Of a stretch of 30,646 nucleotides of DNA, positions 2,110 to 30,646 are shown in pieces (position 1 is the stretch's first letter; each line of letters begins with the position of its first letter). Below the pieces are notes generated by a model. That model searched no databases. It worked only from the letters and a program-made list of their open reading frames with translations, and was not told the DNA's origin. The DNA comes from a virus. A program made the position numbers and the translations under genes. Where the stretch lies: the IMG/VR virus record IMGVR_UViG_3300043409_000987, positions 1 to 30,646 of that record; one strand, 5' to 3'.

Positions 2110-3318
2110 ATGGCTAGATGGCCGTGGTCGAAGGATCGCGAGGGGTCACAGGAGCAGCGTACGTCCGTGGACTTCACGGCGTTCTCGGACAAGTTCTCAT
2201 CGACGCCCAACACGTTCTCCGGCGTCAACGTTGACCGCGACGTGGCGATGACACTGCCCGCCGTCTGGCGCTGTATCAGCCTGAACTCCGAAACGATTGC
2301 CAGCCTGCCCGTCGACTCGTTCCGCAAGGAGGGCAAGCGCCGCGTCGCCACCCCGGCCCCGTTCTGGCTCGAAAGGCCGAACGACGAGTACACCTGGGCC
2401 GAGATGATCCAAGAGGTGCAGGTGGGCCTAGAGCGCGACGAGAACGCCTACCTGCTCAAGGTATCGACCGCCTCTGGGCGCCTGTTCGAGCTCTGGCACC
2501 TCGCCCCGCACGCGGTCACGCCCGAGCGCCTCAACGGCAGCAGTGGACCCATCGTCTACAAGGTCGCCACGAACGCCGGTATCGAGACATTACCGGCGAA
2601 CGCCATCCTGCACATCAAGGGTCTGACCATGCCGCGAGAACTCAAAGGGCTCTCGCGCATCGCCAGCGCCCAGAACGCCATCGGGCAGGGTCTCGCCGCC
2701 GCCGAGTTCGGCCAACGATTCTTCGGTGACGGCGCGCACCTCTCGGGAGTGGTGACGGCTCCGGGCAAGGTCGAGCAGCCCGTCGTCGAGTCCATCCAGA
2801 AGATGTTCACCAAGCGGCACGGCGGCATCTCCAAGAGCCATGCCCTGGGCGTGCTCACCGGCGGCGCCACATGGACCCCGCTCTCGGTCAAGCCCGAGGA
2901 GAGCCAGTTCCTCCAGACTCAGGAATGGACCGCCGCGCAGATCGCCTACATGTTCGGCATCCCGCCGCACTACGTGACCAACGTCGACGGCGCCAAGGGC
3001 TTCGTGACCTCCATCGTCGAGTCCAAGTTGCTGTGGCTGACCACCGGCCTACAGCCGCGCATCGTCCGTCTGGAGCGCGCCTTCTCGTCGCTGCTCCCGC
3101 CCGGCCAGTACATCAAGTTCAACCTCGACGCATTCCTACGCCCGACCCCGCAGGAGCGCGCCGACTTCTACGGCAAGATGGCCGCCGTCATGGGCCTGAC
3201 CCCTGACGAAATCCGCGCCCTTGAAGACCTCGACCCGCTGCCGGACGGCATGGGAGAGAAGCCGCTCCAGTCCGTGCAGTACGTGTGGCCCGAGACATCC
3301 CCGGAGGTAGTCCAGTGA
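2110..3318 (+). CDS. Portal protein, HK97-type
   Basis: A 402-residue portal protein, the dodecameric ring at the capsid vertex through which DNA passes and to which the terminase and neck attach. The N-terminal half carries the usual portal pattern (VWRCISLNSETIASLPV, then W-x-L-x-P-H in LWHLAPHAV). The C-terminal half has the EWTAAQIAYMFGIPPHYV segment seen in HK97-like portals. The position between large terminase and protease is canonical. The start ATG at 2110 has only a weak, somewhat distant purine stretch upstream (GAGGT at 2091-2095). Its stop overlaps the GTG start of the protease gene, implying coupled translation. Confidence 0.93.
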   Translation: MARWPWSKDREGSQEQRTSVDFTAFSDKFSSTPNTFSGVNVDRDVAMTLPAVWRCISLNSETIASLPVDSFRKEGKRRVATPAPFWLERPNDEYTWAEMIQEVQVGLERDENAYLLKVSTASGRLFELWHLAPHAVTPERLNGSSGPIVYKVATNAGIETLPANAILHIKGLTMPRELKGLSRIASAQNAIGQGLAAAEFGQRFFGDGAHLSGVVTAPGKVEQPVVESIQKMFTKRHGGISKSHALGVLTGGATWTPLSVKPEESQFLQTQEWTAAQIAYMFGIPPHYVTNVDGAKGFVTSIVESKLLWLTTGLQPRIVRLERAFSSLLPPGQYIKFNLDAFLRPTPQERADFYGKMAAVMGLTPDEIRALEDLDPLPDGMGEKPLQSVQYVWPETSPEVVQ

Positions 3319-4043
3319 AAGAGACCCGCATCGTATCCGCACCCGTTGAGGTGCGCGGCGAGGGGGAAGGCACCGCCACCATCGCCGGGTATGCGTGCCT
3401 ATACAACCAACCGTATGAGGTCTGGGGCTTCCGCGAGATCGTCGCCCCCGGCGCCTTCACCAAGACCTTGAAAGAGCGCGGCGGCTATGACACCGCCGTA
3501 GTCTGGTCCCACGACGCCGACCGCGTCCTGGGCACCGTCGAGTCCGACACCGCCCGCGTCTTCTCCGACGACGACGGCCTGCGCTACGAGGCCGACCTAG
3601 ACCTGCTCGACCCCGACGGCATGAGCGCCTTCCGCAAGATCACGACAGGCAAGGTGCGCCAGTCCTCGTTCAGCTTCGAGATCATCCGCGACGAGTGGGA
3701 GTACCCCGAGTCCGAAGAGAACTCCCGCGAGCTCCCGGTCCGAACCATCCACGAGGTCCGACTCTGGGAGTGCTCCCCCTGCCTGTGGGGCGCCAACCCC
3801 GAGACCGTCGTCGATGTCGCCCGCGCCGCCCGCTCACTGGCCGTCGCCGCCGACGTTGACGAAGCCGCCGCCGCCGAGGCGCTGGCACAGCACGACCTCT
3901 CCACCCTGAAAACAACGGGCATCGAGCCCGAGTCACGCGAAGACGCCACCGAGACGCCGGATGACGCGCCGCCCGAAGGGGCACCCGTCGCCACCTCTCC
4001 GCCGGAGCCCGCTCGCAAGTTCCGTCCCGTCCTTCCTATCTAA
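3315..4043 (+). CDS. Prohead maturation protease, S78 (HK97) family
   Basis: A 242-residue serine protease that cleaves the capsid protein N-terminus during head maturation. The catalytic His is in VVWSHD and the nucleophile Ser in RQSSFSFE, the paired signature of the HK97 prohead protease family. The core ends near residue 180. An Ala/Glu/Pro-rich tail follows and is probably disordered. The start chosen is GTG at 3315, 7 nt after GGAGG at 3303-3307 and overlapping the portal stop as GTGA. An ATG at 3285 in the same frame lies further inside the portal gene and lacks this ribosome site. The next gene is the expected substrate, the major capsid protein. Confidence 0.92.
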   Translation: MKETRIVSAPVEVRGEGEGTATIAGYACLYNQPYEVWGFREIVAPGAFTKTLKERGGYDTAVVWSHDADRVLGTVESDTARVFSDDDGLRYEADLDLLDPDGMSAFRKITTGKVRQSSFSFEIIRDEWEYPESEENSRELPVRTIHEVRLWECSPCLWGANPETVVDVARAARSLAVAADVDEAAAAEALAQHDLSTLKTTGIEPESREDATETPDDAPPEGAPVATSPPEPARKFRPVLPI

Positions 4044-4052
4044 GGAAACCAC

Positions 4053-5258
4053 ATGGACTACACGAGCATCACCAAGGCGCACGAGGACTACCGACGCGCC
4101 ATCGAAATCGGCAGGGACGAGAACCTGCCCGAAGAGACCCGCACCAAGGCTCTGACCGACGCCGTCGAGATGCGCCGCGTCATCGACGAGGCCGTGGCCG
4201 AACTGGTCAAGTCCAAGGAAGAGGACGACGCCCGCGCCAAGACCGAGGCCGTCATCCACGCCGATCCCGTCGTGGCGCTCGCCAACGAAAAGCGCGCCTT
4301 CAACCAGACCATCATCGACATCGCCGACGGCAAGCGCCAGAACATGACGCTGACCGCGGACGCTCCCGAGATGCGTACCGACTACCCGATGACCACGACC
4401 GAAGCCTCGACGGTGTACTCCTCGTATAACGTCAAGACCGAACTGTGGAATGCCATCGAGTGGCACGAGAACGCCGAATCGGCAGTCAAGCGCGCCGGCC
4501 CGAAGGTTCTGCGTACGGCCGGCGACCACACCATCTACATCCCCGTTCTCGGCACCGACGCCGTGGCCGACACCACGCCCGGCTCTGAGAACACCGCCCC
4601 GACCCACGCCATGTATCCCGTGTTCACCCGCGAGCAGCTCGACAGCTACCGGGTGCAGGGCTTCATGACCGTTTCCGAAGAGATGCTCCGCACCCCGGAC
4701 TATCCCTTCTTCGACGTTCTGACCGAGGTTGCTGCCCGCGCGCTCGCCGTGCAGGAAGCCACCTATCTGGCCCGCGGCACCGGCTCCTCGCAGCCCGACG
4801 GCCTCTACTACGTCGGCACCAGCGCCGCCACCTGCGGTTCGGCCTCGACGTTCACCTATCCCGAGCTCGTCAAGCTCTACTTCGGCCCGACTGAGGGCGT
4901 CAGGAATCGCGGCCAGTGGTTCCTTTCGACCTACGCCATGATCGAGCTGTTCAGCATGGTCAACGGCGAGGGTTCGCCGATCATCCAGCCGAGTCCCGTT
5001 GCCGGAGCCAGCGACACGCTGTTCGGCAAGCCCCTCCACGAAGAGGCATACCTCGTCGCCAGCACCATCACCACGGGCGAGAAGCACGTCTTCTTCGGCG
5101 ACATCTCCAAGCTCTGGGTCCGCTACGCGGGCGGCATCGACATCGGTGCCAGCCGCGAGATGAGATTTAATGAGTGGGAGGTAGTTATCAGGGCCGCCCT
5201 CTGGATGGACTGTTGCATGCCCGACAGCACCGGCATGTACTACCTGACTCAGGGCTGA
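4053..5258 (+). CDS. Major capsid protein, HK97 fold
   Basis: A 401-residue major capsid protein. The first roughly 100 residues are charged and helical (an internal scaffold or delta domain). A Thr/Ser-rich linker follows (MTTTEASTVYSS), after which the HK97-like shell domain begins. Typical shell segments include ITIYIPVL-like strands, FTREQLDSYRVQGFMTVSEEML (E-loop/P-domain region) and the ATYLARGTGSSQPDGLYY helix and loop. Cleavage by the upstream protease near residue 100-110 is inferred. The ATG follows AAGGAAACC with good spacing. A strong 11-bp hairpin lies 18 bp after the stop and may stabilise this abundant message or attenuate transcription beyond it. Confidence 0.93.
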   Translation: MDYTSITKAHEDYRRAIEIGRDENLPEETRTKALTDAVEMRRVIDEAVAELVKSKEEDDARAKTEAVIHADPVVALANEKRAFNQTIIDIADGKRQNMTLTADAPEMRTDYPMTTTEASTVYSSYNVKTELWNAIEWHENAESAVKRAGPKVLRTAGDHTIYIPVLGTDAVADTTPGSENTAPTHAMYPVFTREQLDSYRVQGFMTVSEEMLRTPDYPFFDVLTEVAARALAVQEATYLARGTGSSQPDGLYYVGTSAATCGSASTFTYPELVKLYFGPTEGVRNRGQWFLSTYAMIELFSMVNGEGSPIIQPSPVAGASDTLFGKPLHEEAYLVASTITTGEKHVFFGDISKLWVRYAGGIDIGASREMRFNEWEVVIRAALWMDCCMPDSTGMYYLTQG

Positions 5259-6755: not shown

Positions 6756-7871
6756 GTGGCAATCGCCAGAAAAGGGACGCTGACCACGTCTCACAACGCA
6801 ATCACAGGCACCGCCACCTCTGCGGCTATCGAGATGGCCGGATGGGACGCCCTCTACTGCGCGGTGACGCTCTCCACAACGGGGCAGTGGACGATCTCGC
6901 TCACCGGCTGCGACACGCTCGCCGGCACGTACCTCGACATGGTCGGCCAGTCGATGACCTTCTCGGCCAGCGGCATCTACACCTTCACCGGCCTGCCCGA
7001 CTTCGTCAAGATCGTCGCCACTGAGGACTCCGGCAGCGCCGCCTGCACCGTCCAGACCATGCCCGTCGTCAGCACCGGCTCAGCGACCGGGAGTGAGATC
7101 AACCTCGACACCTCCGGCCACATCCAGGTCGATGTCGCGTCCACCACCGGAACCGCCAACGTCGCCGTCGTCTCGTCCGCCACGACCCTCCCCGCCGAGA
7201 CCGTCGTCGCGGGCGCATCCTCCGTCCTCGGCAAGATCGGCACCATTCCCGCCACGACCGGCTACATCTTCGCCGCCTGCAACGCATCCGGCGCGAACTA
7301 CTCTCGCGTCGACTGGCGCTACAAATCGGACAACGCCCACACCCGGCAGATGTACCGGGCGCGCAGCAACGTCCTGTCCGGCACCCTCACCTTCGCCGAC
7401 GCCGATCCCGTAGAGAACGGCGACACCTTCGTCCTCAACGGCCTCACGTTCACGGCCGTCACCTCTGGCGCCGTCGCGGCCAGCCACGAGTACAACATGG
7501 GCGCTGACAACGCCGCCGCCGCCGCAGCTTGCGCCGCACTGCTGATTACCGCCAATGGCGTACCGGGCCTCACCGCCGCCACCGTCACGACTCCAGCGGG
7601 GACCGACGTCATCACCCTCACCTCGGGCACCAATACCGTCTTGCAGTTCTCGCAGGGCACGAGCGGTGCCGCCGAGATCGCCTGGGCCGACACCACGCTC
7701 GCTAGCCTCATCGAGCACGGCTCCGCCACCACAGCCGTCGCCGCGATCACGACCACGTCTGGAAAGCACTACGAGCAATACGTCGACGGCTGGCCGTGGC
7801 TCTTCTACGGGCTGACCAATACCGACGGCGACGCTGCCACGGTCGTCGTGGGCGCGACTCTGTACCTCTAA
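6756..7871 (+). CDS. Beta-domain virion protein with Ig-like repeat module
   Basis: A 371-residue, Thr/Ser/Ala/Gly-rich, beta-strand-dominated protein. Residues about 20-110 (GWDALYCAVTLSTTGQWTIS and onward) look like the beta-sandwich found in phage surface proteins. Residues about 205-310 contain GTLTFADADPVENGDTFVLN, then an Ala-rich helix and DVITLTSGTN, a module common in phage tail and fibre proteins. The start is GTG at 6756 preceded by AGGCGG. Its stop abuts the ATG of the LamG-domain gene with no gap, suggesting matched expression and perhaps one assembly. Likely a head- or neck-attached fibre or decoration component; the exact role is unknown. Confidence 0.75.
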   Translation: MAIARKGTLTTSHNAITGTATSAAIEMAGWDALYCAVTLSTTGQWTISLTGCDTLAGTYLDMVGQSMTFSASGIYTFTGLPDFVKIVATEDSGSAACTVQTMPVVSTGSATGSEINLDTSGHIQVDVASTTGTANVAVVSSATTLPAETVVAGASSVLGKIGTIPATTGYIFAACNASGANYSRVDWRYKSDNAHTRQMYRARSNVLSGTLTFADADPVENGDTFVLNGLTFTAVTSGAVAASHEYNMGADNAAAAAACAALLITANGVPGLTAATVTTPAGTDVITLTSGTNTVLQFSQGTSGAAEIAWADTTLASLIEHGSATTAVAAITTTSGKHYEQYVDGWPWLFYGLTNTDGDAATVVVGATLYL

Positions 7872-9170
7872 ATGGCACTCGTCCTTGACAGACGCAACCG
7901 AGAACCCTCCACCAGCGACAGCGAACGCTGGCTCGACTGGGCCACGCGCAAGGGCTACCTCCAGCCCGTCCAGCCCACCACCCGCACCGGCTTCATCGAA
8001 TACGGCCCCGGTGCCCTCTTCCTGCCTGCCCAGACTAACTACGTCACAAACCCTACGGCGGCGACGACGGGATGGACCGGGCTCTCCGGCCTCACGGTGA
8101 CAAGAGAGACCACGGCCCCAGTTGCGTTTCCTCCGGGTATCTCGACCTGTTGCAAGATTGTCCACGGGGCGGTCGACTACGGTGCCTTCCAGCTTATTCC
8201 TAAGTTTGCGGTGGTGGCGGGAGAGGTCTACACGGGTTCGGCGTTTGTTCATATGTCGGAGGAGTTGACCACAGACCGCATATACGTCGCCTTCCGCACC
8301 TACTTAGGGGCCGACGTGAAGCGGGACTGGTATCTGATCGCCGCCTATGTTTCCGACCCGAATACCTCCTTTGCCCGTATCTCCAAGTCAGTGACCATCG
8401 CCGCCGACGAAGACGGTCTGGAGTTCTCGTGCTGGACCGACACCGGAACGTCCACTGGCTACGTCACCGGCTTCATGGTCGAAAAATCCGCCGTCCTCAC
8501 CCCCTACTTCGACGGCTCCACCCATGACTGTGTCTGGACGGGGGCGGCGAATGCGAGCACGTCAACGCGGGCGGGCTCTGACTTGCAGGTTAGCACGGGA
8601 CTTCCGTCAGGACTGCAAACCGCCGGTACTTTTGCTGGGAGATTGGTCCCGCTCTGGGCAGCTAACGACGGAGCGTTCCATAGCTGCGGAATACTGTGGG
8701 CCGATGCGAACGGCAGCATCAGTTTCTACAAAGCAAGCACCAATTTCTGGACTGTGTCCTGCCGGGGCGGAGGCGCGTCAAACACCACCACGATATCGGC
8801 GGGAGCGTCTGCCGCTGGCACCGCCCATGTTGTGACGGCCCGCTGGACTCAGGGCGGTGCGGGCACAATAGACCTCATGGTAGATGGGACCGCCGCAGCG
8901 CAGGGCGCCCAAGCCAAGACGCTCGCTGCGCCTACCACGTTCTATATCGGTCGGTATCAGGACGGGACACAGCCCGTGCAAGCGTACCTCGGACCTATCG
9001 CAGTCTGCCCCGCCCGCATCACCGACGCCGAGACCGCCCTCCTCTCCACCATGCTCACCGCTGGATGCACCGGGGCATGCCTAGCCAAATGGTTCCGCGA
9101 CAAGTCCTACGTGAACACCCTCATCATTCCCCTTGAGGGAAGCTGTACGGCATTTCGGGTCGTGGCGTGA
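7872..9170 (+). CDS. Putative carbohydrate-binding virion protein with LamG-like domain
   Basis: A 432-residue protein. Residues about 50-215 form a jelly-roll-like module (TNPTAATTGWTGLSGLTVTR start, FMVEKSAVLTPYFDGSTHDC end) typical of phage carbohydrate-binding or fibre domains. Residues about 240-420 look like a LamG/concanavalin-like lectin domain: HVVTARWTQGGAGTIDLMVDG, then TFYIGRYQDGTQPVQAYLGPIAV and ITDAETALLSTM. Such domains bind glycans or act as structural beta-sandwiches. It sits between head and neck genes rather than in the tail-tip region. With the deacetylase two genes later it suggests a surface-glycan-engaging structure. The start is ATG directly after the previous stop. 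Confidence 0.78.
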   Translation: MALVLDRRNREPSTSDSERWLDWATRKGYLQPVQPTTRTGFIEYGPGALFLPAQTNYVTNPTAATTGWTGLSGLTVTRETTAPVAFPPGISTCCKIVHGAVDYGAFQLIPKFAVVAGEVYTGSAFVHMSEELTTDRIYVAFRTYLGADVKRDWYLIAAYVSDPNTSFARISKSVTIAADEDGLEFSCWTDTGTSTGYVTGFMVEKSAVLTPYFDGSTHDCVWTGAANASTSTRAGSDLQVSTGLPSGLQTAGTFAGRLVPLWAANDGAFHSCGILWADANGSISFYKASTNFWTVSCRGGGASNTTTISAGASAAGTAHVVTARWTQGGAGTIDLMVDGTAAAQGAQAKTLAAPTTFYIGRYQDGTQPVQAYLGPIAVCPARITDAETALLSTMLTAGCTGACLAKWFRDKSYVNTLIIPLEGSCTAFRVVA

Positions 9171-9490
9171 TGGGCGGTTGGAATAACGGCATCTACTTTC
9201 CATCAGTCCAGTCCGTAGACCACGACACCTACGCCAGCACCACATTCTTCGGCTGCAAGGAACTGGCCCCGAAGGAATACGCCGACAAAGCCACCGGCCC
9301 CGTCACCGTCCTCTACCGGAAGATAGCCCCGGTCATGGGCACGGGCAAGGACGCGGGCAAGGTCATCACCGAGGCCAAGATCGAGCTGGTGCCGGAGAAG
9401 GACGCGGGGGCGTTTCTGGCGTCGGTTGCGGTGATCGCTGAGGAACCTGTTGAGAAGCCGATTGATGACCTGAAGGAGGTGGCGGGATGA
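9167..9490 (+). CDS. Hypothetical protein between LamG and deacetylase genes
   Basis: A 107-residue protein (106 if the ATG at 9170 is used instead of the GTG at 9167). Both starts overlap the preceding stop. It has an aromatic N-terminus (GGWNNGIYFPSVQS), a central segment (VTVLYRKIAPVMGTGKDAGK) and an acidic C-terminus (EEPVEKPIDDLKEVAG). It ends in an ATGA overlap with the deacetylase-connector gene, so it is translated in the same run. No family is recognised. It may be a small linker or chaperone for the neighbouring fibre-like proteins, which is inferred from position only. Confidence 0.65.
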   Translation: MMGGWNNGIYFPSVQSVDHDTYASTTFFGCKELAPKEYADKATGPVTVLYRKIAPVMGTGKDAGKVITEAKIELVPEKDAGAFLASVAVIAEEPVEKPIDDLKEVAG

Positions 9491-11277
9491 CCGCTCCGTG
9501 TGTGATCAACGCGGGCACCATAATCGAGGATTTCGCCGCCGTCACAGGCTGGACCCAAGACTCGACCCTCTATGCCCCCGCTCTCTCACACCTATCGCTG
9601 ACAGACGGTGGGCACTCCGTGTCGGTACAACCCAAGATCGCCGCCGCTATCGTTACCGGCTACATGGAGAAGACCATCGCCCTCGACGCCTCCGCTCTGT
9701 CGAGCTGCATGGTGCTCGACCTGTGGGCTGGAGAGGACAACGCCATTCTCTTCACCAACGGCGCGAGAGTGACCATCACCCTCTCTTCGACGGCCGACTA
9801 CTCAAAGAACTTCTCGTGGCAGTCCGGGTACCTGTCCTCGGGTTGGAACCGGTTGATGGTCGGAGACACGATGTGGACCAACACCGGGACCGACTCGTGG
9901 GCGAACACGATGATACGTCTGCGAATCGGTATTACCACCTACTATTCGGGGCAGATCGCCACCCTGGTATTCGACCAGCTACGCGGCGGGGTCATCAATA
10001 CCCCTGTCGTCATCTGGCAGTTTGACGACTGCTACGCCTCTCAATACACCGAGGCGTTCCCGTACCTCGAAGCCAACAACATGCAGGGGACTCTATTCCC
10101 GATCGTTGACCAGATGGACACGACCGGCTATCTGACAACGGCGCAAATCAAAGAGATGCACGCGGCGGGCTGGTACGTCGGCAACCACACAAACAGCCAT
10201 ACCAACCTCCGCACCCTCAGCGACGACGGTATCCTCGACGAACTAGAGACGGCTCAGAACTGGTTGCAATCCAACGGTCTAGGAAACCCCGGACACATAA
10301 CCTACCCTGGCAGTAACCACGACGCCAGAGTCGTAGGGATTGTCAAAGACGCCGGGTATCTGACGGCGGCTATAGCTGGCACCAACGCCGCTCAGCCGAT
10401 AGTCAACCCATACGAGATCGTTGTCCGGCAACTCGCATATACGACCTCCCTGGCGACCGCCAAGACCTACATCGATGACGCTATCGACGCCGGAGCCTGT
10501 GTCCACATCCTCCTGCACGACATTCTGGCGACCGCCGACTCGTCTCTAGAGTGGACGATAGACGATTTCGAGGACTTGGTGGACTACGTCGCCACGAAGG
10601 TTGCGGCGGGGCTGATCACGCCGATGACGAGAGACGAGTGGTACGCCTTTGCGACGGACGACGCCGCCGACCTCGCCCTCTTCACCGTCGCCGAGGCTCG
10701 CGCCTTCGCCAACGCCGTGCTCGCCAACACGACCGACTACGCGACTGCGGCGATCACTGACAAGGCGGATGAAATCCTCGAACGCTTCGAGCGCCGTTGC
10801 GGCGTCCGCTTCGTCCCCGCCTCCGTCACCGAGACCCTGTCGGGCGATGGCACCAGCACCCTCTACCTCGGCCAGCACAATCCCGTGCTGGAGCGCCCGC
10901 GCAGGCCCGTGGTCGTGTCCGCCGTCACGGTCGACGGCACGGCCCTGACCGCGACCGAACTGCTGGAAGTCTTCTGCGACTGCGACGGCATGATGCACCG
11001 CAACGGCTCATACTGGCCAGCAACTGAACCACATAACGTCGTGGTCACGTACACGGTCGGCTGGGCGACGGTGCCGTACGAGATCAAGCGCGCGGCCCTG
11101 ATGGTCTGCGTGAACGAGATGCCGACCAACAACTGGTCCGACCGCGCTACCAGCGTCAGCGACGGCGTCCTGAACGCGCAACTGCTGACCGAAGGCGTAC
11201 GCGGCGCCGTGTCCTCGATCCCCGCCGTCAACGACACCCTGAAAACGTATGACGAACGCGGCCTCGGGATCGCCTGA
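9487..11277 (+). CDS. NodB polysaccharide deacetylase fused to head-tail connector
   Basis: A 596-residue three-part protein. Residues 1-170 are a beta-sandwich. Residues about 172-388 are a NodB-fold polysaccharide deacetylase with motif 1 WQFDDC (D180, D181), motif 2 NHTNSH (H234, H238), motif 3 YPG at 273-275 and the C-terminal LLHD (H344, D345), so the metal and catalytic residues appear intact. Residues about 397-596 match gp6-type head-tail connectors: FTVAEARAFANAVLAN, then ILERFERRCGV, an LSGDGTSTLYL strand and a VTYTVGWATVPYEIKRAAL helix. There is no stop or frame change between the parts. The only Met near the junction is M380 (10624), with weak ribosome-site support. The overlap with the next start (TGATG) fits a neck gene. 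Enzymatic activity is inferred from motifs. Confidence 0.85.
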   Translation: MTAPCVINAGTIIEDFAAVTGWTQDSTLYAPALSHLSLTDGGHSVSVQPKIAAAIVTGYMEKTIALDASALSSCMVLDLWAGEDNAILFTNGARVTITLSSTADYSKNFSWQSGYLSSGWNRLMVGDTMWTNTGTDSWANTMIRLRIGITTYYSGQIATLVFDQLRGGVINTPVVIWQFDDCYASQYTEAFPYLEANNMQGTLFPIVDQMDTTGYLTTAQIKEMHAAGWYVGNHTNSHTNLRTLSDDGILDELETAQNWLQSNGLGNPGHITYPGSNHDARVVGIVKDAGYLTAAIAGTNAAQPIVNPYEIVVRQLAYTTSLATAKTYIDDAIDAGACVHILLHDILATADSSLEWTIDDFEDLVDYVATKVAAGLITPMTRDEWYAFATDDAADLALFTVAEARAFANAVLANTTDYATAAITDKADEILERFERRCGVRFVPASVTETLSGDGTSTLYLGQHNPVLERPRRPVVVSAVTVDGTALTATELLEVFCDCDGMMHRNGSYWPATEPHNVVVTYTVGWATVPYEIKRAALMVCVNEMPTNNWSDRATSVSDGVLNAQLLTEGVRGAVSSIPAVNDTLKTYDERGLGIA

Positions 11278-11768
11278 TGGCCGCGACCGCTTCAATCGGC
11301 GAGTTCCTTGACGAACTCAAGATCGACCTCGACGCCATCACCCCCGGCCTCGACGGCGTACGGGTCTTCACCGCGCCCGTAGACGAGAAGGTAGAAGGCG
11401 GCGAGGCCATCCTACTCGGGCACGAGGCAATCACCGCAGAATGGCGCATGCAGGGTCCAGACACCATCGCCGAGCACTACTCGGTTCCCTGCCGCCTGCT
11501 CTGCTTCAAGCCCGGCGGCACGAACATCGCCACCACCGGCAAGGCGAGCGAGACGCAGGTGAGCGCCGCACGCGACCGGGCGCTCGCCATCCTGCACATC
11601 CTCTACGACCAGAGCTACACCGACCACCATGCCTCAAGCACGGTCGAGGACTGGAATATCACCGGCGTCACCATCGACCAGGCACCCTACGAACAGGGCA
11701 GCACCGCCGGCCGAATCTGCGCCGTGACCTTCACCATTGAAGTCTCCGCCATGTTTACCCCAGCGTAA
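11277..11768 (+). CDS. Neck or tail-terminator-like protein
   Basis: A 163-residue protein starting with ATG that shares one base with the preceding stop. It has an N-terminal helix (SIGEFLDELKIDLDAI), beta-strand stretches (GVRVFTAPVDEK, YSVPCRLLCFKPGG), a helix (SAARDRALAILHILYDQ) and a final strand (ICAVTFTIEVSAMF). This alternation and length resemble tail-terminator or head-completion proteins, which lie just after the connector in this gene order. No motif decides between those roles. Confidence 0.6.
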   Translation: MAATASIGEFLDELKIDLDAITPGLDGVRVFTAPVDEKVEGGEAILLGHEAITAEWRMQGPDTIAEHYSVPCRLLCFKPGGTNIATTGKASETQVSAARDRALAILHILYDQSYTDHHASSTVEDWNITGVTIDQAPYEQGSTAGRICAVTFTIEVSAMFTPA

Positions 11769-11782
11769 CGAGGAGCCCCCGC

Positions 11783-11986
11783 ATGCCCGCCAAGCCAAAG
11801 CCCCAACAGGGTCGATTCCGCACGCTCGTCGACAACCTGAGCCACGACAAGCACAACCACCGCGTCGGCTCCGTCGTCGACTGCCTGCCGGAGAAGTCCG
11901 TGGAGTGGATGCTGGCCTGCGGCTGGATCGAGCCAACTACCGAGGAAGCCAACGAAGCCGAGGAGGTGACCGAGCATGACGATTAG
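11783..11986 (+). CDS. Small hypothetical neck-region protein
   Basis: A 67-residue protein with a compact N-terminal half (RFRTLVDNLSHDKHNHRVGS, then a V-x-x-L-P-E-K-S-V-E-W-M-L-x-C-G-W-I-E segment) and an acidic tail. The RVGSVVDCLPEKSVEWML part resembles short phage proteins that carry a small beta-hairpin plus helix. The start ATG follows GAGGAG at 11769-11774. Its end overlaps the following tail gene by 11 bp. Function unknown. Confidence 0.72.
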   Translation: MPAKPKPQQGRFRTLVDNLSHDKHNHRVGSVVDCLPEKSVEWMLACGWIEPTTEEANEAEEVTEHDD

Positions 11987-12710
11987 ACCAGCCAGCCGCA
12001 AAGACGCGCAGGTACTCTTCGGCGGCTATGACTGCTCAAGCGCCCTGGAGATCGTCACCTTCAAGGAAACCGCCGCGCTCGACATCTTCAAACCGCTCGG
12101 CAGCGCCTACCAGACCGCGTACGACACCGGGGGCCGCTCCTGCGAAGTGACCGCGCTCGGCATCGCGGACGGCAACAACACCAGCCTCTCGACCCTCACC
12201 GGCACCAACTCAGTCGCCACCATCAAGTTCGACTCCGACGTACTCGCCCGCCGCTGCCGCTGCTTCCGCACCGCGCTCCTGTCCGAGGCCGAGGTCATCA
12301 CCGCCGACGGGGCCATGACCCGCGTGCAGTCTGGGGTCGCTGTCACGGGCGAGTTCAACAATGGCTACATCGTCGCGCCGCTCACCGCCCGCACCGACTC
12401 CGGCAACACCGACGCCGACGACGCCGACATGGGCAACACCACGTCTGCCGGTCTCGGGCACATGTTCCTGCATGTTACGGCCATCGCCCTGGGCGGCTAC
12501 GCGAACTGCCTCATCACCCTGCGCAACTCCGACGACGCGACCACCTGGGCAGACCACACCGCCTTTACCGCCGTCACCGCCATCGGAGCCGAGTTCAAGA
12601 CACCCGTCGCACAGGTGGAGCGGTACACGTCCGTCTCCTGGCTCTGGCAAGGCGGCACGCCCAGCGGCGGGCACAGCATCACGTTCAGCGTCGCGTACGC
12701 GCGCGACTAA
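11976..12710 (+). CDS. Tail-tube-like protein, probable major tail protein
   Basis: A 244-residue beta-rich protein. The N-terminal region has P-L-G-S-A-Y-Q-T-A-Y-D-T-G-G-R at 40-54. The C-terminal region contains AIALGGYANCLITLRNSDDA, then EFKTPVAQVERYTSVSWLWQ, as seen in tail-tube or major tail proteins of some siphoviruses. The position before the chaperone and tape measure genes fits. A closely similar N-terminal motif appears in the next gene, suggesting relatedness by duplication. The start ATG at 11976 lies inside the previous gene, with GAGGAGG upstream. Major tail protein is the best guess, but the next gene competes for that role. Confidence 0.65.
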   Translation: MTIRPASRKDAQVLFGGYDCSSALEIVTFKETAALDIFKPLGSAYQTAYDTGGRSCEVTALGIADGNNTSLSTLTGTNSVATIKFDSDVLARRCRCFRTALLSEAEVITADGAMTRVQSGVAVTGEFNNGYIVAPLTARTDSGNTDADDADMGNTTSAGLGHMFLHVTAIALGGYANCLITLRNSDDATTWADHTAFTAVTAIGAEFKTPVAQVERYTSVSWLWQGGTPSGGHSITFSVAYARD

Positions 12711-12762: not shown

Positions 12763-13158
12763 ATGGCAATCGTTCCCTGGAGCGCCAAAGACTCGACGCT
12801 CACCTACAACTCGACCGACCTGAGCGCTTGGGTCACGGCGCCGCCGAACCTCAAGTTCAGCGCCGGGATGAACACCTGGACGCCGATGGGCTCCGCGTAC
12901 CCGACCGCCTTCGACTCGGGCCAGCGCGCCCTCGACGCCATCCAAGCGACGTTCGTCTATGACGGCGCCGCTGCGGCACCGAACGTGAAGTGCGCGCTGG
13001 CGACCAGTGCGACCCTCACCATCGTGCTCGGCACCGGCCACTCATGCGCCTGCACCGCCATCGTCGCCGACCAGGAAGTGCAGATCACCGAGACGGCGTC
13101 CCTGCTCGTGGTCACGTTCCAGCCTTCGGGCACGATCACGTGGGACTTGGCGACCTGA
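12763..13158 (+). CDS. Second tail-tube-like protein
   Basis: A 131-residue beta-rich protein with good ribosome site AAGGAGG at 12752-12758. Residues 41-55 (P-M-G-S-A-Y-P-T-A-F-D-S-G-Q-R) align with residues 40-54 of the preceding protein, and both have a Lys-Asp pair at 9-10 followed by a similar strand. It is probably a tail-tube-fold protein, either the tube subunit itself or a specialised terminal ring. It lacks the C-terminal extension of its larger relative. A 52-bp gap separates the two genes, the largest in this part of the operon, suggesting a separately tuned translation rate. Confidence 0.65.
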   Translation: MAIVPWSAKDSTLTYNSTDLSAWVTAPPNLKFSAGMNTWTPMGSAYPTAFDSGQRALDAIQATFVYDGAAAAPNVKCALATSATLTIVLGTGHSCACTAIVADQEVQITETASLLVVTFQPSGTITWDLAT

Positions 13159-13161
13159 GCC

Positions 13162-13653
13162 ATGTCGGTCTCGGTCTCCGTTGACGTAGACATCAAGCTC
13201 CTGCAGGCCACGATCCGCGACACGCAATCGAGCCTGCGCGAGACCGAGCTATCGAAAGCGTTTGAGCGCGGGGCGAAACTCGTCATCGACGAGCGAATCT
13301 CGCTCATCAACCGCGAAGGCACGAACAGGACCGGCCACTTCGCCAAAGCCGGGAAAACGTACCGCAGAGCCGGGAAGGGTATCGCCGCCCTTCCCGGCTC
13401 CCATGACAAGAAGGACTACATCGGCGTACATGAGTTCGGCGGCATGATTCCGCGCCACCAGGGCAAGGCACCACACCAGAGATTCACCATGCACCGGCCA
13501 CCCGCCACGGAGTTCGGCCTCGGCAGTTACTACCTCTATCCGGCCTTCGAGAAGAAGAAGGACGAGATCGTGGACGAGGTCCGCAAGGAAATACAGAACA
13601 TCCTAAACGATCACAGCCTCGGCGACATCTCTGGCTACTCGACCCGCTACTAG
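13162..13653 (+). CDS. HK97 gp10-like tail completion protein
   Basis: A 163-residue protein with the arrangement of HK97 gp10-type neck or tail-completion proteins. It has an N-terminal helical stretch (SSLRETELSKAFERGAKLVI), a basic central part ending in YIGVHEFGGMIPRHQGKAPH (compare the family's V-E-F-G-T), and a C-terminal YYLYPAFEKKKDEIVDEVRK helix. It is expected to act in joining the finished tail to the head. It starts at ATG 13162, 4 bp after the previous stop. Its place after the tube-like genes rather than before them is slightly unusual. Confidence 0.65.
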   Translation: MSVSVSVDVDIKLLQATIRDTQSSLRETELSKAFERGAKLVIDERISLINREGTNRTGHFAKAGKTYRRAGKGIAALPGSHDKKDYIGVHEFGGMIPRHQGKAPHQRFTMHRPPATEFGLGSYYLYPAFEKKKDEIVDEVRKEIQNILNDHSLGDISGYSTRY

Positions 13654-21094: not shown

Positions 21095-21237
21095 TCCCCC
21101 TCGTCATCCGCACACAGGACGGGCGCCTGTACCTCATCCGCTGCCCCCGTTGCGGCAAGTCCAATCCCGTGCTCTGCATCCCGTCCGGCGTCTGCGATTA
21201 CTGCGGCTACGTCGCGGAGGAGGGTGACGTGAAATGA
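21091..21237 (+). CDS. 48-residue double zinc-ribbon peptide
   Basis: A 48-residue protein (GTG start at 21091, overlapping the metallophosphoesterase stop by 4 bp). It has two cysteine pairs, C18-x2-C21 and C35-x2-C38, and an extra C29, in the spacing of a rubredoxin-like or zinc-ribbon knuckle pair. The frame is open upstream, but that part is a shadow of the phosphoesterase. The stop overlaps the MT-A70 gene by 4 bp (ATGA). The overlaps on both sides support it as a real, co-translated gene. Role unknown; it could be an adaptor for either neighbour. Confidence 0.75.
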   Translation: MIPLVIRTQDGRLYLIRCPRCGKSNPVLCIPSGVCDYCGYVAEEGDVK

Positions 21238-21791
21238 GCGGCAAGTACCGCACCATCGTTGCCGATCCGCCGTGGAGCTACGACGACGGGTTCCCACAGG
21301 GTCCGGCGCATGGAGTCAGACGCGCCACTGTGAAACTCCCGTACCCGTCTATGTCCGCAACTGAAGTCGCAGCCCTGCCCGTGCCGGAATGGTGCGAGCG
21401 GGACTGCTGGCTGTTCCTCTGGACGACGAATCGTTATCTGCCCGATTCGTTCAGCATCGTCGAGGCGTGGGGGTTCCGGTACACGCAGACGATTACGTGG
21501 CGCAAGACCGGCTGCCCGTCACCGTTCGTTCGCAGCGTGGCGCCGCAACACTCTGAGTTTCTGCTGGTCGGCAGACGCGGGCACCCTCGCCGCGATGGCT
21601 CGTTCCCGACATCCGTTATCGACGCCCCCGCTCAGTCGAGACATAGCGCGAAGCCAGAGGTGTTCATGGACTACGTCGAGGCCGTCGGCGAGGGTCCACG
21701 TCTTGAGATGTTTGCCCGCCGCAATCGCCTTGGCTGGGATACGTGGGGCAATGAGGCGCTTGAGCACGTGACGATGGGGGCGGCGAAATGA
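21234..21791 (+). CDS. MT-A70-family adenine methyltransferase
   Basis: A 185-residue protein with the catalytic DPPW at 11-14 (TIVADPPWSY). The MT-A70 pattern continues: LPYPSMSATEVAALP, a CWLFLWTTNRYLP strand, YTQTITWRKTG, a glycine-containing EFLLVGRRG and SRHSAKPEVFMDYVE. Family members methylate the N6 of adenine in DNA or RNA using S-adenosylmethionine. Phage members are commonly orphan DNA methylases that may mask sites from host restriction. No restriction partner is present. The start is ATG in an ATGA overlap, with GGAGGGTGA upstream. The following gene also starts in an ATGA overlap. Confidence 0.9.
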   Translation: MSGKYRTIVADPPWSYDDGFPQGPAHGVRRATVKLPYPSMSATEVAALPVPEWCERDCWLFLWTTNRYLPDSFSIVEAWGFRYTQTITWRKTGCPSPFVRSVAPQHSEFLLVGRRGHPRRDGSFPTSVIDAPAQSRHSAKPEVFMDYVEAVGEGPRLEMFARRNRLGWDTWGNEALEHVTMGAAK

Positions 21792-22057
21792 CCGTGATCC
21801 CCTACCTCACCCAAAAGAAGCGCCTCATCAAGAACCTCGACGCGGCCCGGACGATGCTGCGTTCCCTGGTCGCCGACGACGCATACCTCTCCTACGCCAT
21901 CGAAGTCGCCGTGGAGCGGCACGAGGAAGGGTTCACGCAGTACGGCGACGCCCTCATTCGTACAGAGGATTATAAGATTGACTGCGACATCATCGAGGAG
22001 ATCGCGGACGCGCTCGTGTACCTGGCCGAGAAGTCGGCGCGGGAGCGGGAGACGTGA
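21788..22057 (+). CDS. MazG-like small alpha-helical protein
   Basis: An 89-residue all-helical protein. The segment ERHEEGFTQYGDALIRTE and the later DIIEEIADALVYLA (69-80) resemble the E-E-x-x-D helix of MazG/dUTPase-like NTP pyrophosphohydrolases and of short phage proteins related to them. It lacks the full four-helix set of a complete MazG, so it may be a divergent member or a non-catalytic relative. It overlaps both neighbours by 4 bp, placing it firmly in the methyltransferase and radical SAM run. A nucleotide-pool role is inferred only. Confidence 0.6.
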   Translation: MTVIPYLTQKKRLIKNLDAARTMLRSLVADDAYLSYAIEVAVERHEEGFTQYGDALIRTEDYKIDCDIIEEIADALVYLAEKSARERET

Positions 22058-22938
22058 GAGTCGCCATCGCCCAAGTCGACGGCAAGTGGCCGAATCTGGC
22101 GCTGGCGAAGATCGCTGCGTATCACCGAGCGCGGGGTGATTCCGTCGAGTGGTTCTCGCCGCTCGCTCATCTAGATCGCCGAGGCTGTGAATCGGTGTAT
22201 GCGAGCAAGGTATTCAAGGACACGGTTGACGACCCATACCTACCACTCGACACAGTTTGTGGCGGGTCTGGCTATAGCCTGGACGGGAGGCTGCTGCCCG
22301 AGATTGAGCGGATGAAGCCCGATTGGTCGCTGTGGCCGACGTGGCCGCACGACATGGGCTTCAGCACGCGCGGTTGTGTGCGTAAGTGCCCGTTCTGCAT
22401 CGTGCCCGAGAAGGAGGGGCCGATCCGCGTCGTGGCAGAGTTCGGCGACCTCACGACGTATCGCAAGACGATGAAGCTTCTCGACGGCAACGTGACCGCC
22501 GCACCGATCGAGCACTTCCGCCACTTCTGCGACGCGGCTACAGCGTCGCGCGTCGAGATCGAGTTCAACCAAGGGCTCGACGCTCGCCTGCTCACCGACG
22601 AACACGCCGCCATCATCGCCCGCTCGAAGTTCGCCCGCTACATTCACCTCGCCTTCGACCACGTCGGAGACGAGGCGGCGGTACGGCACGCCATCGCCAC
22701 GATGCAGTCAGCAGGAGTGCCCGCGTCCCGCCTCATGTTCTTCGTGCTGGTCGGCTTCGACACAACGAAAGAGGAGGACATGTACCGAATCGAACTCCTG
22801 CGCTCGCTCGGCTGCTACCCGTTCGTGATGCCGTTCGATCGCCACGACCGCTACCAGCGCGACCTGACGCGATGGTGCAACAAGTACCAGCACCGGAACG
22901 TAACGTGGGCGGAGTACCGGAAGGTGATAGCAGCATGA
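22054..22938 (+). CDS. Radical SAM enzyme
   Basis: A 294-residue protein with the iron-sulphur cluster motif C108-x3-C112-x2-C115 in STRGCVRKCPFC. Residues 1-80 (RVAIAQVDGKWPNLALAKIA) resemble the N-terminal nucleotide- or cobalamin-binding-like part found in phage and bacterial radical SAM proteins. Later parts show barrel segments such as EIEFNQGLDARLLTDEHAAI and FFVLVGFDTTKEEDMYRIEL. It should use S-adenosylmethionine and a 4Fe-4S cluster to make a radical; its substrate is unknown. The start is GTG at 22054, overlapping the MazG-like gene by 4 bp. Adjacent methyltransferases raise nucleic-acid modification as one possibility. Confidence 0.88.
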   Translation: MRVAIAQVDGKWPNLALAKIAAYHRARGDSVEWFSPLAHLDRRGCESVYASKVFKDTVDDPYLPLDTVCGGSGYSLDGRLLPEIERMKPDWSLWPTWPHDMGFSTRGCVRKCPFCIVPEKEGPIRVVAEFGDLTTYRKTMKLLDGNVTAAPIEHFRHFCDAATASRVEIEFNQGLDARLLTDEHAAIIARSKFARYIHLAFDHVGDEAAVRHAIATMQSAGVPASRLMFFVLVGFDTTKEEDMYRIELLRSLGCYPFVMPFDRHDRYQRDLTRWCNKYQHRNVTWAEYRKVIAA

Positions 22939-23373: not shown

Positions 23374-23669
23374 GAACCGGCCTCACCTACTCCCCCAACG
23401 CCGACGAACTCCCCTGCCCCGAATGCGGCAGCCGGGTCGCGTACGAGTACGGCGCGCGTGGCAAGCGGCGACGTGATCGCTATGGCACCTGCACCGGGCG
23501 CGGGCTCCTGCTCACGCCCTCGTTCGTCGACGGCGCCTGGATGGGGCGGTTCTGGGCGGAGGGGTTTGCGTGGGAATCGTTCGCGGAGTTCGTGACGAGG
23601 CGAGCACGAGAACTGCGCGAGTTGAGCACTGACAACTCCGGGCGGCGGGAGTTGCGCGCGCGTGAGTAG
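23370..23669 (+). CDS. Small protein with CxxC knuckle
   Basis: A 99-residue protein with C16-x2-C19 (LPCPECGS) and C41, an Arg/Lys-rich centre (GARGKRRRDRYG) and a C-terminal aromatic and helical region (MGRFWAEGFAWESFAEFVTR). The start chosen is ATG at 23370, 6 nt after GCGAGG and in an ATGA overlap with the upstream 52-codon gene. An in-frame GTG at 23325 would add 15 basic residues but has no convincing ribosome site. It overlaps the DNA methyltransferase gene by 8 bp. Possibly nucleic-acid binding; function unknown. Confidence 0.7.
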   Translation: MRTGLTYSPNADELPCPECGSRVAYEYGARGKRRRDRYGTCTGRGLLLTPSFVDGAWMGRFWAEGFAWESFAEFVTRRARELRELSTDNSGRRELRARE

Positions 23670-24624
23670 CAGGCTGATTCACGGCGACTGCCTCGAAGCG
23701 ATGGCCGCGATGGAAGCGGGCAGCGTTGACGCGGTCGTGACTGACCCGCCCTACGGCCTCGCATTCATGGGCAAGCACTGGGACCACGGCCTGCCCGGCG
23801 TCGACTTCTGGACCGAAGCCCTCCGCGTCCTGCGCCCCTCCCACTACCTCCTCGCCTTCGGTGGCACCCGCACATGGCACCGCCTCGCCTGTGCCCTTGA
23901 GGATGCAGGCTTCGAGATACGCGACACGCTGATGTGGCTGTACGGCAGCGGCTTCCCCAAAGGCACCGCCTGTCTCAAGCCCGCGTGGGAGCCCATCATC
24001 CTCGCCCGCAAGCCGGGGCCGAAGCGGGCGCTGGGGATTGAGGAGTGCAGGGTTTCCACCACCGACGACCTCAATGGCGGCGCATACGCACAGAACGGCA
24101 ACCGAGTTGACCTACCCGGAGCAGAGAGAAGCGTCGCGGCCGCAGGGATGTGGGCCGCTGGGAAGACGGTGGGAGCCGACTTCGTGCAGCCCTCCGGCCG
24201 CTACCCCGCGAACCTCATCCTCGACGAAGAGGCGGGGGCGATGCTGGGGGACAAGGCGAGGTTCTTCTTCTGCGCCAAGGCGTCGCGGGCGGAGAGGGAG
24301 GCGGGACTGTTCATGCAGCATGAACGGTTTGCGCCAACGATGGGCAACGGAATCGGCGGCAGGGAGCACGACCCGCTGACGGCGACGCCCAGGGGGAACC
24401 ACCACCCCACCGTCAAGCCCCTCGCCCTCATGCGCTGGCTGGTCAAGCTCGTGGCCTATCCCGGCGACACCGTGCTCGACCCGTTCCTCGGCAGCGGCAC
24501 CACCGGCGTCGCCTGCGCCGAAGAGGGGCGCGAGTTCATCGGTATCGAGCGCGAGGCCGAGTACGTGGAGATTGCACGGGCGAGGATTGGGGCCGCAGAG
24601 GCGCAGACGAGGCTATGCGTGTGA
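23662..24624 (+). CDS. DNA methyltransferase, DPPY type (beta class)
   Basis: A 320-residue amino-methyltransferase. The catalytic DPPY is at 28-31 (VVTDPPYGLAF) and the SAM-binding motif FLGSGTTG at about 275-282, so motif IV precedes motif I, the order of the beta class (N4-cytosine or N6-adenine methylation). A central HHPTVKPLALMRWLVKL segment is also typical. The recognition sequence cannot be read from the protein. No endonuclease is adjacent, so it is likely an orphan methylase that protects phage DNA or alters host signals. The start is GTG at 23662. It is the second amino-methyltransferase within 2.5 kb. A 415-bp gap follows. Confidence 0.92.
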   Translation: MSSRLIHGDCLEAMAAMEAGSVDAVVTDPPYGLAFMGKHWDHGLPGVDFWTEALRVLRPSHYLLAFGGTRTWHRLACALEDAGFEIRDTLMWLYGSGFPKGTACLKPAWEPIILARKPGPKRALGIEECRVSTTDDLNGGAYAQNGNRVDLPGAERSVAAAGMWAAGKTVGADFVQPSGRYPANLILDEEAGAMLGDKARFFFCAKASRAEREAGLFMQHERFAPTMGNGIGGREHDPLTATPRGNHHPTVKPLALMRWLVKLVAYPGDTVLDPFLGSGTTGVACAEEGREFIGIEREAEYVEIARARIGAAEAQTRLCV

Positions 24625-29730: not shown

Positions 29731-30119
29731 CCGTCCAAGTAGCCCCCACCGACTACACCCCCGTCCACGACCCCGACATCGCGGAGAAGGTCATCAACGA
29801 TCTCATCGCCTGCCCCGGTCAGTGGCGCGAACCCTGCGCCCTGTTCGGTGTCGATGCCACGCAGGCCCGCGAGATCGTCGAAGGGGGCCGCGCCTGTGGC
29901 CTGCTCATCGAAGGGCACGGCAAGGGGCGGCGCGGGTACCGGTTCCTGTGCTGGCGCAAGCTCTGGGGCAGGCGCCGGGCATGGCAGATATTCGAGGCAC
30001 TGGAAGAGACGATGACACGGCCGCTCTCGCTGATTCGCGAGGTCGCCGAGCAGGGCACGCAACTGGCACTGTTCGCGGCCTTCGACCGGGGACGGTTGTG
30101 CGATTGGAGGGGACGATGA
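29727..30119 (+). CDS. Hypothetical protein, possibly DNA-binding
   Basis: A 130-residue protein starting with GTG in a GTGA overlap. The first 75 residues (AEKVINDLIACPGQWREPCA, then FGVDATQAREIVEGGRACGL and GHGKGRRGYRFLCW) look like a winged-helix-type arrangement with a basic wing. The rest is helical (RRRAWQIFEALEETMTRPLS). It follows the excisionase-like gene and overlaps the next by 4 bp (ATGA). A regulatory or replication-associated role is possible, but no family is recognised. Confidence 0.68.
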   Translation: MTVQVAPTDYTPVHDPDIAEKVINDLIACPGQWREPCALFGVDATQAREIVEGGRACGLLIEGHGKGRRGYRFLCWRKLWGRRRAWQIFEALEETMTRPLSLIREVAEQGTQLALFAAFDRGRLCDWRGR

Positions 30120-30646
30120 CACTGTACAAGACAATGGACGGCACCAAAGGCGCATACGGGCACGGCGAATGGTTCATGCCCCACGGTAAGCGGCCCGGCA
30201 AGTGGATGCCGAAGGTGCCCGCCGTGTTGTGCGAGAGTGGCTACCACTTCTGCGACGATCCGCTCGATTTGCTGGGGCACTACGGACCCGACCTCTACGA
30301 GGTCGAGGTGCGCGGGGAAGTCGTCAAGGGCAACGACAAGTCCTGCGCGGAGCAGGCGCGGCTACTGCGCCGGGTGCCCGCGTGGAGCGACTACACGCTG
30401 CGGATGTTCGCTATCGACTGTGCTCGGCGAGTCGCCTATCTCGTCAAGGACGATGACGAGCGCGAGTTGTACGGCGACATCCTCGACCTGCTCACCGGCT
30501 TCGCCGAGTTCGGCACCGGAGGGATTGATGGCGCGGCGCGGGACGCGGCGTGGGGCGCGGCGCGGGGCGCGGCGCGGGGCGCGGCGCGGGGCGCGGCGCG
30601 GGGCGCGGCGGGGGGCGCGGCGCGGGGCGCGGCGCGGGGCGCGGCG
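30116..30646 (+). CDS. DUF7666-like protein with GAAR repeats, cut by window end
   Basis: A frame from ATG 30116 (after GGAGGGGACG, ATGA overlap) is still open at the last base, 177 codons. The N-terminal domain has ESGYHFCDDPLDLLGHYGPD and DLYEVEVRGEVVKGNDKS, which resembles the DUF7666 domain of phage proteins of unknown function. From residue 139 the protein becomes a tetrapeptide repeat of the form G-A-A-R, with one D-A-A-W and one G-A-A-G. Such Ala/Arg repeats often follow this domain in phage proteins. The true C-terminus is outside the window. Function unknown. Confidence 0.72.
   Translation, partial: MTLYKTMDGTKGAYGHGEWFMPHGKRPGKWMPKVPAVLCESGYHFCDDPLDLLGHYGPDLYEVEVRGEVVKGNDKSCAEQARLLRRVPAWSDYTLRMFAIDCARRVAYLVKDDDERELYGDILDLLTGFAEFGTGGIDGAARDAAWGAARGAARGAARGAARGAAGGAARGAARGAA
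30530..30646 (+). repeat. 12-bp in-frame tandem repeat at window end
   Basis: Nine full units and one 9-bp partial unit of GGCGCGGCGCGG, in frame with the DUF7666-like gene. Unit 2 (30542-30553) reads GACGCGGCGTGG and unit 7 (30602-30613) ends GGG; the others are identical. The sequence stops inside the array, so the copy number is a minimum, and an assembly break is possible. Confidence 0.92.

Follow-up and report, generated by a model that had tools for sequence, protein, structure and literature searches.

The window, that is, the whole 30,646-base stretch of an IMG/VR virus record analyzed here, has the gene order of an ordinary long-tailed phage, beginning with terminase, portal, S78 protease and HK97-fold capsid genes. 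Several small or glycan-type genes follow the capsid gene, and after them come the gene in focus here, the tail genes (including one for neck or tail completion) and a 597-residue tape measure protein. At 9487-11277 on the plus strand, 596 codons without an internal stop join a beta-sandwich, a CE4/NodB polysaccharide deacetylase and a head-tail adaptor in one frame, located between the major capsid gene and the tail genes, where an adaptor is expected. An earlier note on this DNA had described a single uninterrupted 596-codon frame and an in-frame NodB-connector fusion, and both observations are confirmed. The features are as follows.

2110-3318, plus strand: portal protein (context; Pfam)
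3285-4043: S78 prohead protease (Pfam)
4053-5258, plus strand: HK97-fold major capsid protein (context; Pfam)
7872-9170, plus strand: 432-residue protein with a Laminin_G_3/ConA-like lectin domain (Pfam, E 6e-7)
9167-9490, plus strand: 107-residue ORF (from the ORF list), no family in Pfam or PHROG, ATGA overlap with the start of the fused gene
9473-9481, plus strand: near-perfect Shine-Dalgarno sequence AAGGAGGTG for the start at 9487, spacing 5, duplex -12.6 kcal/mol
9487-11277, plus strand: fused gene, 596 residues (ORF, Pfam, PHROG, codon statistics)
9520-9981, plus strand: N-terminal beta-sandwich/CBM-like region, residues ~12-165 (tblastn; weak phrog_9983 match)
9982-10638, plus strand: NodB/CE4 domain, residues ~166-384 (Pfam PF01522; alignment of phage and bacterial homologues)
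10021-10029, plus strand: FDD, putative catalytic base and metal-binding Asp, residues 179-181 (invariant in the alignment)
10183-10200, plus strand: NHTNSH, metal-binding His pair of the H[ST]xxH type, residues 233-238 (aligned to PDB 6dq3)
10303-10311, plus strand: YPG motif, residues 273-275 (alignment)
10510-10521, plus strand: LLHD motif, residues 342-345 (alignment)
10624-10626, plus strand: Met380, the sole in-frame start codon near the joint, weak Shine-Dalgarno sequence (-5.6 kcal/mol, spacing 11)
10642-10677, plus strand: short linker between the domains, residues ~386-397, across which G+C rises from 58% to 67%
10675-11274, plus strand: head-tail adaptor (gp6/gp15/RcGTA g6-like connector), residues ~397-596 (phrog_442, phrog_30828; fold match)
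11277-11768, plus strand: 163-residue ORF of no family, one-base overlap with the stop of the fused gene, in the stopper/terminator position
13162-13653, plus strand: Neck1/tail completion protein (context; phrog_5, E 3e-4)

Among the tail genes, the ORFs at 11976-12710 and 12763-13158 have N-termini that look similar by eye (...GSAY.TA.D.G.R...) and may represent a duplication among tail-tube-type proteins.

The deacetylase part is recognized by Pfam as PF01522 over residues 173-292 (E 6.4e-22; 78.3 bits against a cut-off of 23.1), and in an alignment of phage and bacterial homologues the domain reaches to about residue 384. The profile search thus backs the NodB domain proposed in the earlier note, and the four motifs it had named, FDD, NHTNSH, YPG and LLHD, lie exactly at the residues given for them. 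By sequence, the nearest solved structures are polysaccharide deacetylases such as PDB 6dq3, with which the window protein shares its family and metal motif; it differs from these enzymes in being fused to a virion channel protein and in a variant motif 3. The beta-sandwich, likewise proposed earlier, is backed by tblastn, in which residues 12-369 align to sandwich-NodB proteins of Gordonia phages (glucosaminyl deacetylases), and by a weak profile match to a tail protein family (phrog_9983, E 7e-4); its fold has no confident model. Single-sequence AlphaFold2 prediction of the full chain gave an unusable model (pLDDT 34), and mixed full-length alignments were dropped, as MAFFT had placed connectors on the N-terminal part.

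The metal triad of the domain is intact, with motif 1 (FDD, 179-181) and motif 2 (HTNSH, 234-238) in canonical form. Among the remaining CE4 motifs 3 to 5 (RxPY, DxxDW, LxH), LLHD is present, motif 4 is indistinct and motif 3 reads TYPG, without Arg. CE4 enzymes typically have an Arg in motif 3 (R-x-P-Y), and deacetylase activity is therefore not certain; the related phage proteins have YPNG or YPAG at this position, as against TYPG in the fusion protein. It is conceivable, if rather unlikely, that the NodB part is a glycan-binding or structural domain of a collar and no longer an enzyme. The missing Arg would suit such a role, as would the many phage appendages that bind rather than cut and the Gordonia homologues, in which the alignment shows the second metal His at an altered spacing. 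Against it stands the retention of FDD, HTNSH, YPG and LLHD together, including an intact canonical H[ST]xxH. The chance that the domain is enzymatically active appears a little better than even.

The C-terminal part is assigned with several independent methods. Residues 380-596 match the PHROG families phrog_442 ('head-tail adaptor', E 1e-16) and phrog_30828 (E 5e-22), and a connector HMM built without the fusion sequence finds this frame alone among all ORFs of the window (E 4e-10, residues 399-555). As this HMM finds no second connector-like ORF in the window, the fusion appears to be the sole recognizable head-tail adaptor that the phage encodes there. A model of the connector part, predicted by AlphaFold2 with 19 adaptor relatives, is of low confidence (pLDDT 49); in Foldseek searches with it, neck adaptor chains of RcGTA are the first four PDB matches (best E 1.6e-4). 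With the same model, the RcGTA adaptor also ranks first by VIA (Z 8.6), every match at VIA Z of at least 7 is a portal- or neck-complex chain, and the top of the table consists of neck and portal-complex chains of RcGTA, T5/DT57C, phage 812, Mycofy1 and Milano. The VIA alignment places residue 1 of the RcGTA adaptor at model residue 9, that is, at residue 386 of the fusion, which indicates that the fused part continues from the natural N-terminus of the adaptor. A glucokinase match in Pfam to the connector (E 0.014) is below the cut-off and was rejected as chance. The gp6-type connector of the earlier note is thus borne out by phrog_442, by the independent HMM and by the fold match to RcGTA. 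Since profiles, alignment or HMM, and the fold of the adaptor agree, the NodB and adaptor assignments each rest on more than one test.

The separate parts of the protein have relatives in a telling arrangement. Searches with the whole protein by tblastn return sandwich-NodB proteins of Gordonia, Arthrobacter, TM7 and Bacillus phages, none of which covers the connector. Gordonia phage Jabberwocky encodes the head-tail adaptor gp25 directly after the deacetylase gp24, and in Gordonia phage Mareelih the adaptor gp89 comes directly after the NodB protein gp88. These pairs resemble the window in encoding a sandwich-NodB protein directly upstream of an adaptor, but they are separate genes, their adaptors, recognized as such by PHROG, belong mainly to phrog_783, and their NodB proteins carry an N-terminal fiber-type anchor: by PHROG, the N-terminal segment of gp88 matches fiber and minor-tail families, and that of gp24 a family of unknown function. 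The fusion protein has no such anchor segment. In the viral contig L126, the module protein follows the tape measure and tail-tip genes and has a fiber-like N-terminus (roles assigned by eye). The Gordonia anchors and the position in L126 suggest that the module is usually attached to the virion as an appendage by an anchor that it carries itself, and that here the adaptor takes this role. Because the NodB gene of the Gordonia phages lies directly upstream of the adaptor gene, the fusion looks like a joining of neighbors, and the order in these phages may represent its natural precursor.

The fusion itself appears to be rare. The phrog_442 adaptor is present in 26 of 35 terminase-related viral records, in frames of 168-315 residues, and in none of these 26 relatives is NodB fused to it. 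When viral contigs were scanned with the full-length protein, with the connector and with several NodB alignments, neither a further fusion nor a close relative of the fusion protein was found; the fetched DNA of L089, L090, L098-L105 and L126 contains NodB, with no connector found, and in the genome scan the bacterial contigs contain NodB relatives without an adaptor. A prophage survey drew 396 genomes from the phylum of Marisediminicola (G044) and 398 from that of a Hellea MAG (G047). None of the approximately 130 prophage adaptor matches listed is fused to a deacetylase, and inspection of the longest adaptor frames by eye revealed no enzyme domain. Open frames of as many as 876 residues that surround prophage adaptors were considered as fusions and rejected, most being unconstrained GC-rich frame and others being explained by a beta-type stretch of ~100 residues or by read-over from a capsid gene. 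The latter case, L128, is a prophage- or GTA-like locus in which a frame runs from the capsid gene into the adaptor gene, and it is more suggestive of frame decay or read-over than of a designed fusion.

Smaller N-terminal additions do occur in this family. The adaptors of the bacterial prophages L116, L119, L120 and L121 have an extra ~90-100 beta-type residues at the N-terminus, and gp30 of Streptomyces phage Beuffert likewise has ~100; an extension of ~90-100 residues apparently is a common phrog_442 variant. The adaptor of L050 (1392-2294) is a further observation of this type. In L036 and L037 (both 7029-7973), a beta-rich insert of ~110 residues that matches no Pfam family lies between the first helix of the adaptor and the remainder. 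These extensions and inserts indicate that the N-terminal side of the adaptor accepts passengers. The window protein is like the phrog_442 family (the HK97 gp6/SPP1 gp15/RcGTA g6 class) in its connector domain, genome position and fold match, but the known members are free proteins of ~185-225 residues or bear the ~100-residue beta-type stretch, and none in these surveys bears an enzyme. Among these surveys, the fusion is a singleton on one contig, and the deacetylase passenger is seen here alone. This agrees with the earlier statement that no esterase-bearing connector is known, in that the viral and prophage surveys found no other NodB-connector fusion. Among a limited collection of papers, no useful reports on deacetylases of phage necks or of Gordonia phages were found. 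The protein is therefore a new domain combination of known families, with partial precedents for its neck location and gene order, and its interest is moderate, limited by its being known from a single contig.

At the joint, translation signals and composition both bear on how the two parts are produced. The strong Shine-Dalgarno sequence is found only at 9487, as opposed to Met380, and codons 381-410 contain no ATG, GTG or TTG. The adaptor is thus not simply translatable from its own N-terminus, and because its own start codon is absent too, loss of a stop codon alone is insufficient to explain the fusion. The reading frame does not change at the joint; coding-frame statistics give positive log-odds for frame 1 and negative ones for frames 2 and 3 throughout the joint, and no long repeat was found there. 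Residues 166-384 have a G+C content of 58.4% and a GC3 of 0.76, residues 385-596 have 66.8% and 0.88, and the other structural genes range from 0.85 to 0.93 in GC3 (in 212-codon blocks). The lower-G+C stretch lies between about 7,900 and 10,640 and is interrupted by an incomplete recovery around 8,700-9,100; structural genes of normal composition flank it on either side. We read this stretch as a glycan module that was acquired horizontally and became fused to the adaptor. The LamG/ConA-like lectin protein at 7872-9170 shares this stretch with NodB and may be a second glycan-binding protein on the head or neck side.

That the fused gene is real while the connector acts as a free protein of ~23 kDa, supplied by initiation at Met380 or by proteolysis of the linker, is unlikely. 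The S78 prohead protease would be an example of a cutter, and the deacetylase would then be released or reside elsewhere in the particle. Met380 does lie in frame just ahead of the connector, a prohead protease gene is present in the phage, and unfused adaptors of ~185-225 residues are the rule. The internal start raised in the earlier note is nevertheless not favored, given that the duplex at Met380 is weak (-5.6 kcal/mol at the long spacing of 11, against -12.6 kcal/mol at 9487) and that Met380 sits within the final, C-terminal segment of NodB; furthermore, adaptors with extra N-terminal stretches exist and presumably assemble uncleaved. Still more improbable is an assembly artefact, in which an in silico join of two phage fragments, or an erroneous base that erased a stop codon, would have produced the frame: although the fusion is known from one metagenome contig, with a G+C step at the joint and with close relatives not found in the viral contig scans, an essentially complete NodB meets a complete adaptor in frame and without a long repeat, the adaptor lies where expected between capsid and tail genes, a chimera would need two joints since normal structural genes bound the lower-G+C stretch on both sides, a single base error cannot remove both a stop and a start (codons 381-410 having no start codon), and Gordonia phages have the matching order of NodB and adaptor. 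The fusion is very probably real.

The explanation that we favor is that of an acquired module whose fusion yields one chain and an outward collar acting on glycans. An acquired glycan module, consisting of the beta-sandwich and CE4/NodB, would have been the immediate upstream neighbor of the adaptor gene and would have been joined in frame to its 5' end; the deacetylase would have lost its stop codon, and the adaptor its start codon, in the process. The 596-residue chain would be translated from 9487; its C-terminal part would assemble as the adaptor ring beneath the portal, a dodecamer by homology, and its N-terminal part would hang outside the neck as a collar of deacetylase and glycan-binding domains. 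Such a collar might engage and deacetylate host capsule, exopolysaccharide or wall glycan, similar to the way in which neck whiskers and the head fibers of RcGTA engage host glycan.

Known neck structures illustrate how this could be accommodated. In RcGTA, the adaptor dodecamer lies on the outer face of the portal and is 143 A wide, its C-terminal hook binds the portal clip, its attachment domain touches the capsid, and the head fibers of the particle bind capsule (PMC7296036). In phage 812, a beta-sandwich of the adaptor lies on the outer surface of the neck (PMC12886913). We infer that the deacetylases of the window protein would lie outside the ring. By a rough estimate, twelve domains of ~45 A need a radius of ~85-90 A, as compared with 71 A for the ring, and a short linker could suffice; a difficulty for this explanation is that twelve NodB and sandwich domains must fit beside the capsid.

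The earlier note had regarded the neck as an unexpected place for a glycan-acting protein, a view weakened by two precedents. The dodecameric head-tail connector gp4 of P22 has lysozyme activity and was the only virion-associated lysin located in the neck when the review in question was written (PMC5380687). It resembles the proposed collar in being an adaptor-level dodecamer with a glycan-acting activity (PMC5380687), but this activity resides in the 18-kDa adaptor itself, not in a fused CE4 deacetylase. The neck-passage proteins of lactococcal 936 phages end in carbohydrate-binding, pectin-, alginate- or carbohydrate-esterase-like folds, and the lactococcal neck passage structure (NPS) is likewise a neck-level collar with glycan-binding and carbohydrate-esterase-like domains (PMC6669499). 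In contrast to the fusion, it consists of an accessory whisker protein that is distinct from the adaptor and held by a BppU-like anchor; the general Pfam and PHROG scans list no BppU-like match for the fusion protein. By analogy, the latter may work like the neck whisker proteins, and we do not class it as a member of the NPS.

Display of the module as one chain is likely, and the favored explanation as a whole, from acquired module to outward collar, is on balance probable. More tentative, at somewhat less than an even chance, is the strictest form of it, in which an essential channel-forming adaptor and an active deacetylase form one uncleaved chain in a fixed neck collar of twelve copies. 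If the collar exists, the virus carries about twelve deacetylases around its neck. As the lining of the DNA channel, adaptors rank with the virion proteins under the strongest constraint. That one of them bears a 380-residue enzyme module suggests that the outside of the neck ring is usable for the display of glycan enzymes, and that the NodB genes beside adaptor genes in Gordonia phages may code for proteins of the neck and not of the tail tip. If uncleaved and active, the fusion would, to our knowledge, be the first case of a catalytic domain fused to an adaptor.

Elsewhere in the window, two methyltransferase genes of the MT-A70 and N6_N4_Mtase families lie at 21234-21791 and 23662-24624. 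A weak radical-SAM protein with a CVRKCPFC motif is located at 22054-22938 (Pfam E 4e-4, below the cut-off). At ~30116-30646, a truncated DUF7666 protein runs into a GAAR-type repeat at the end of the contig.
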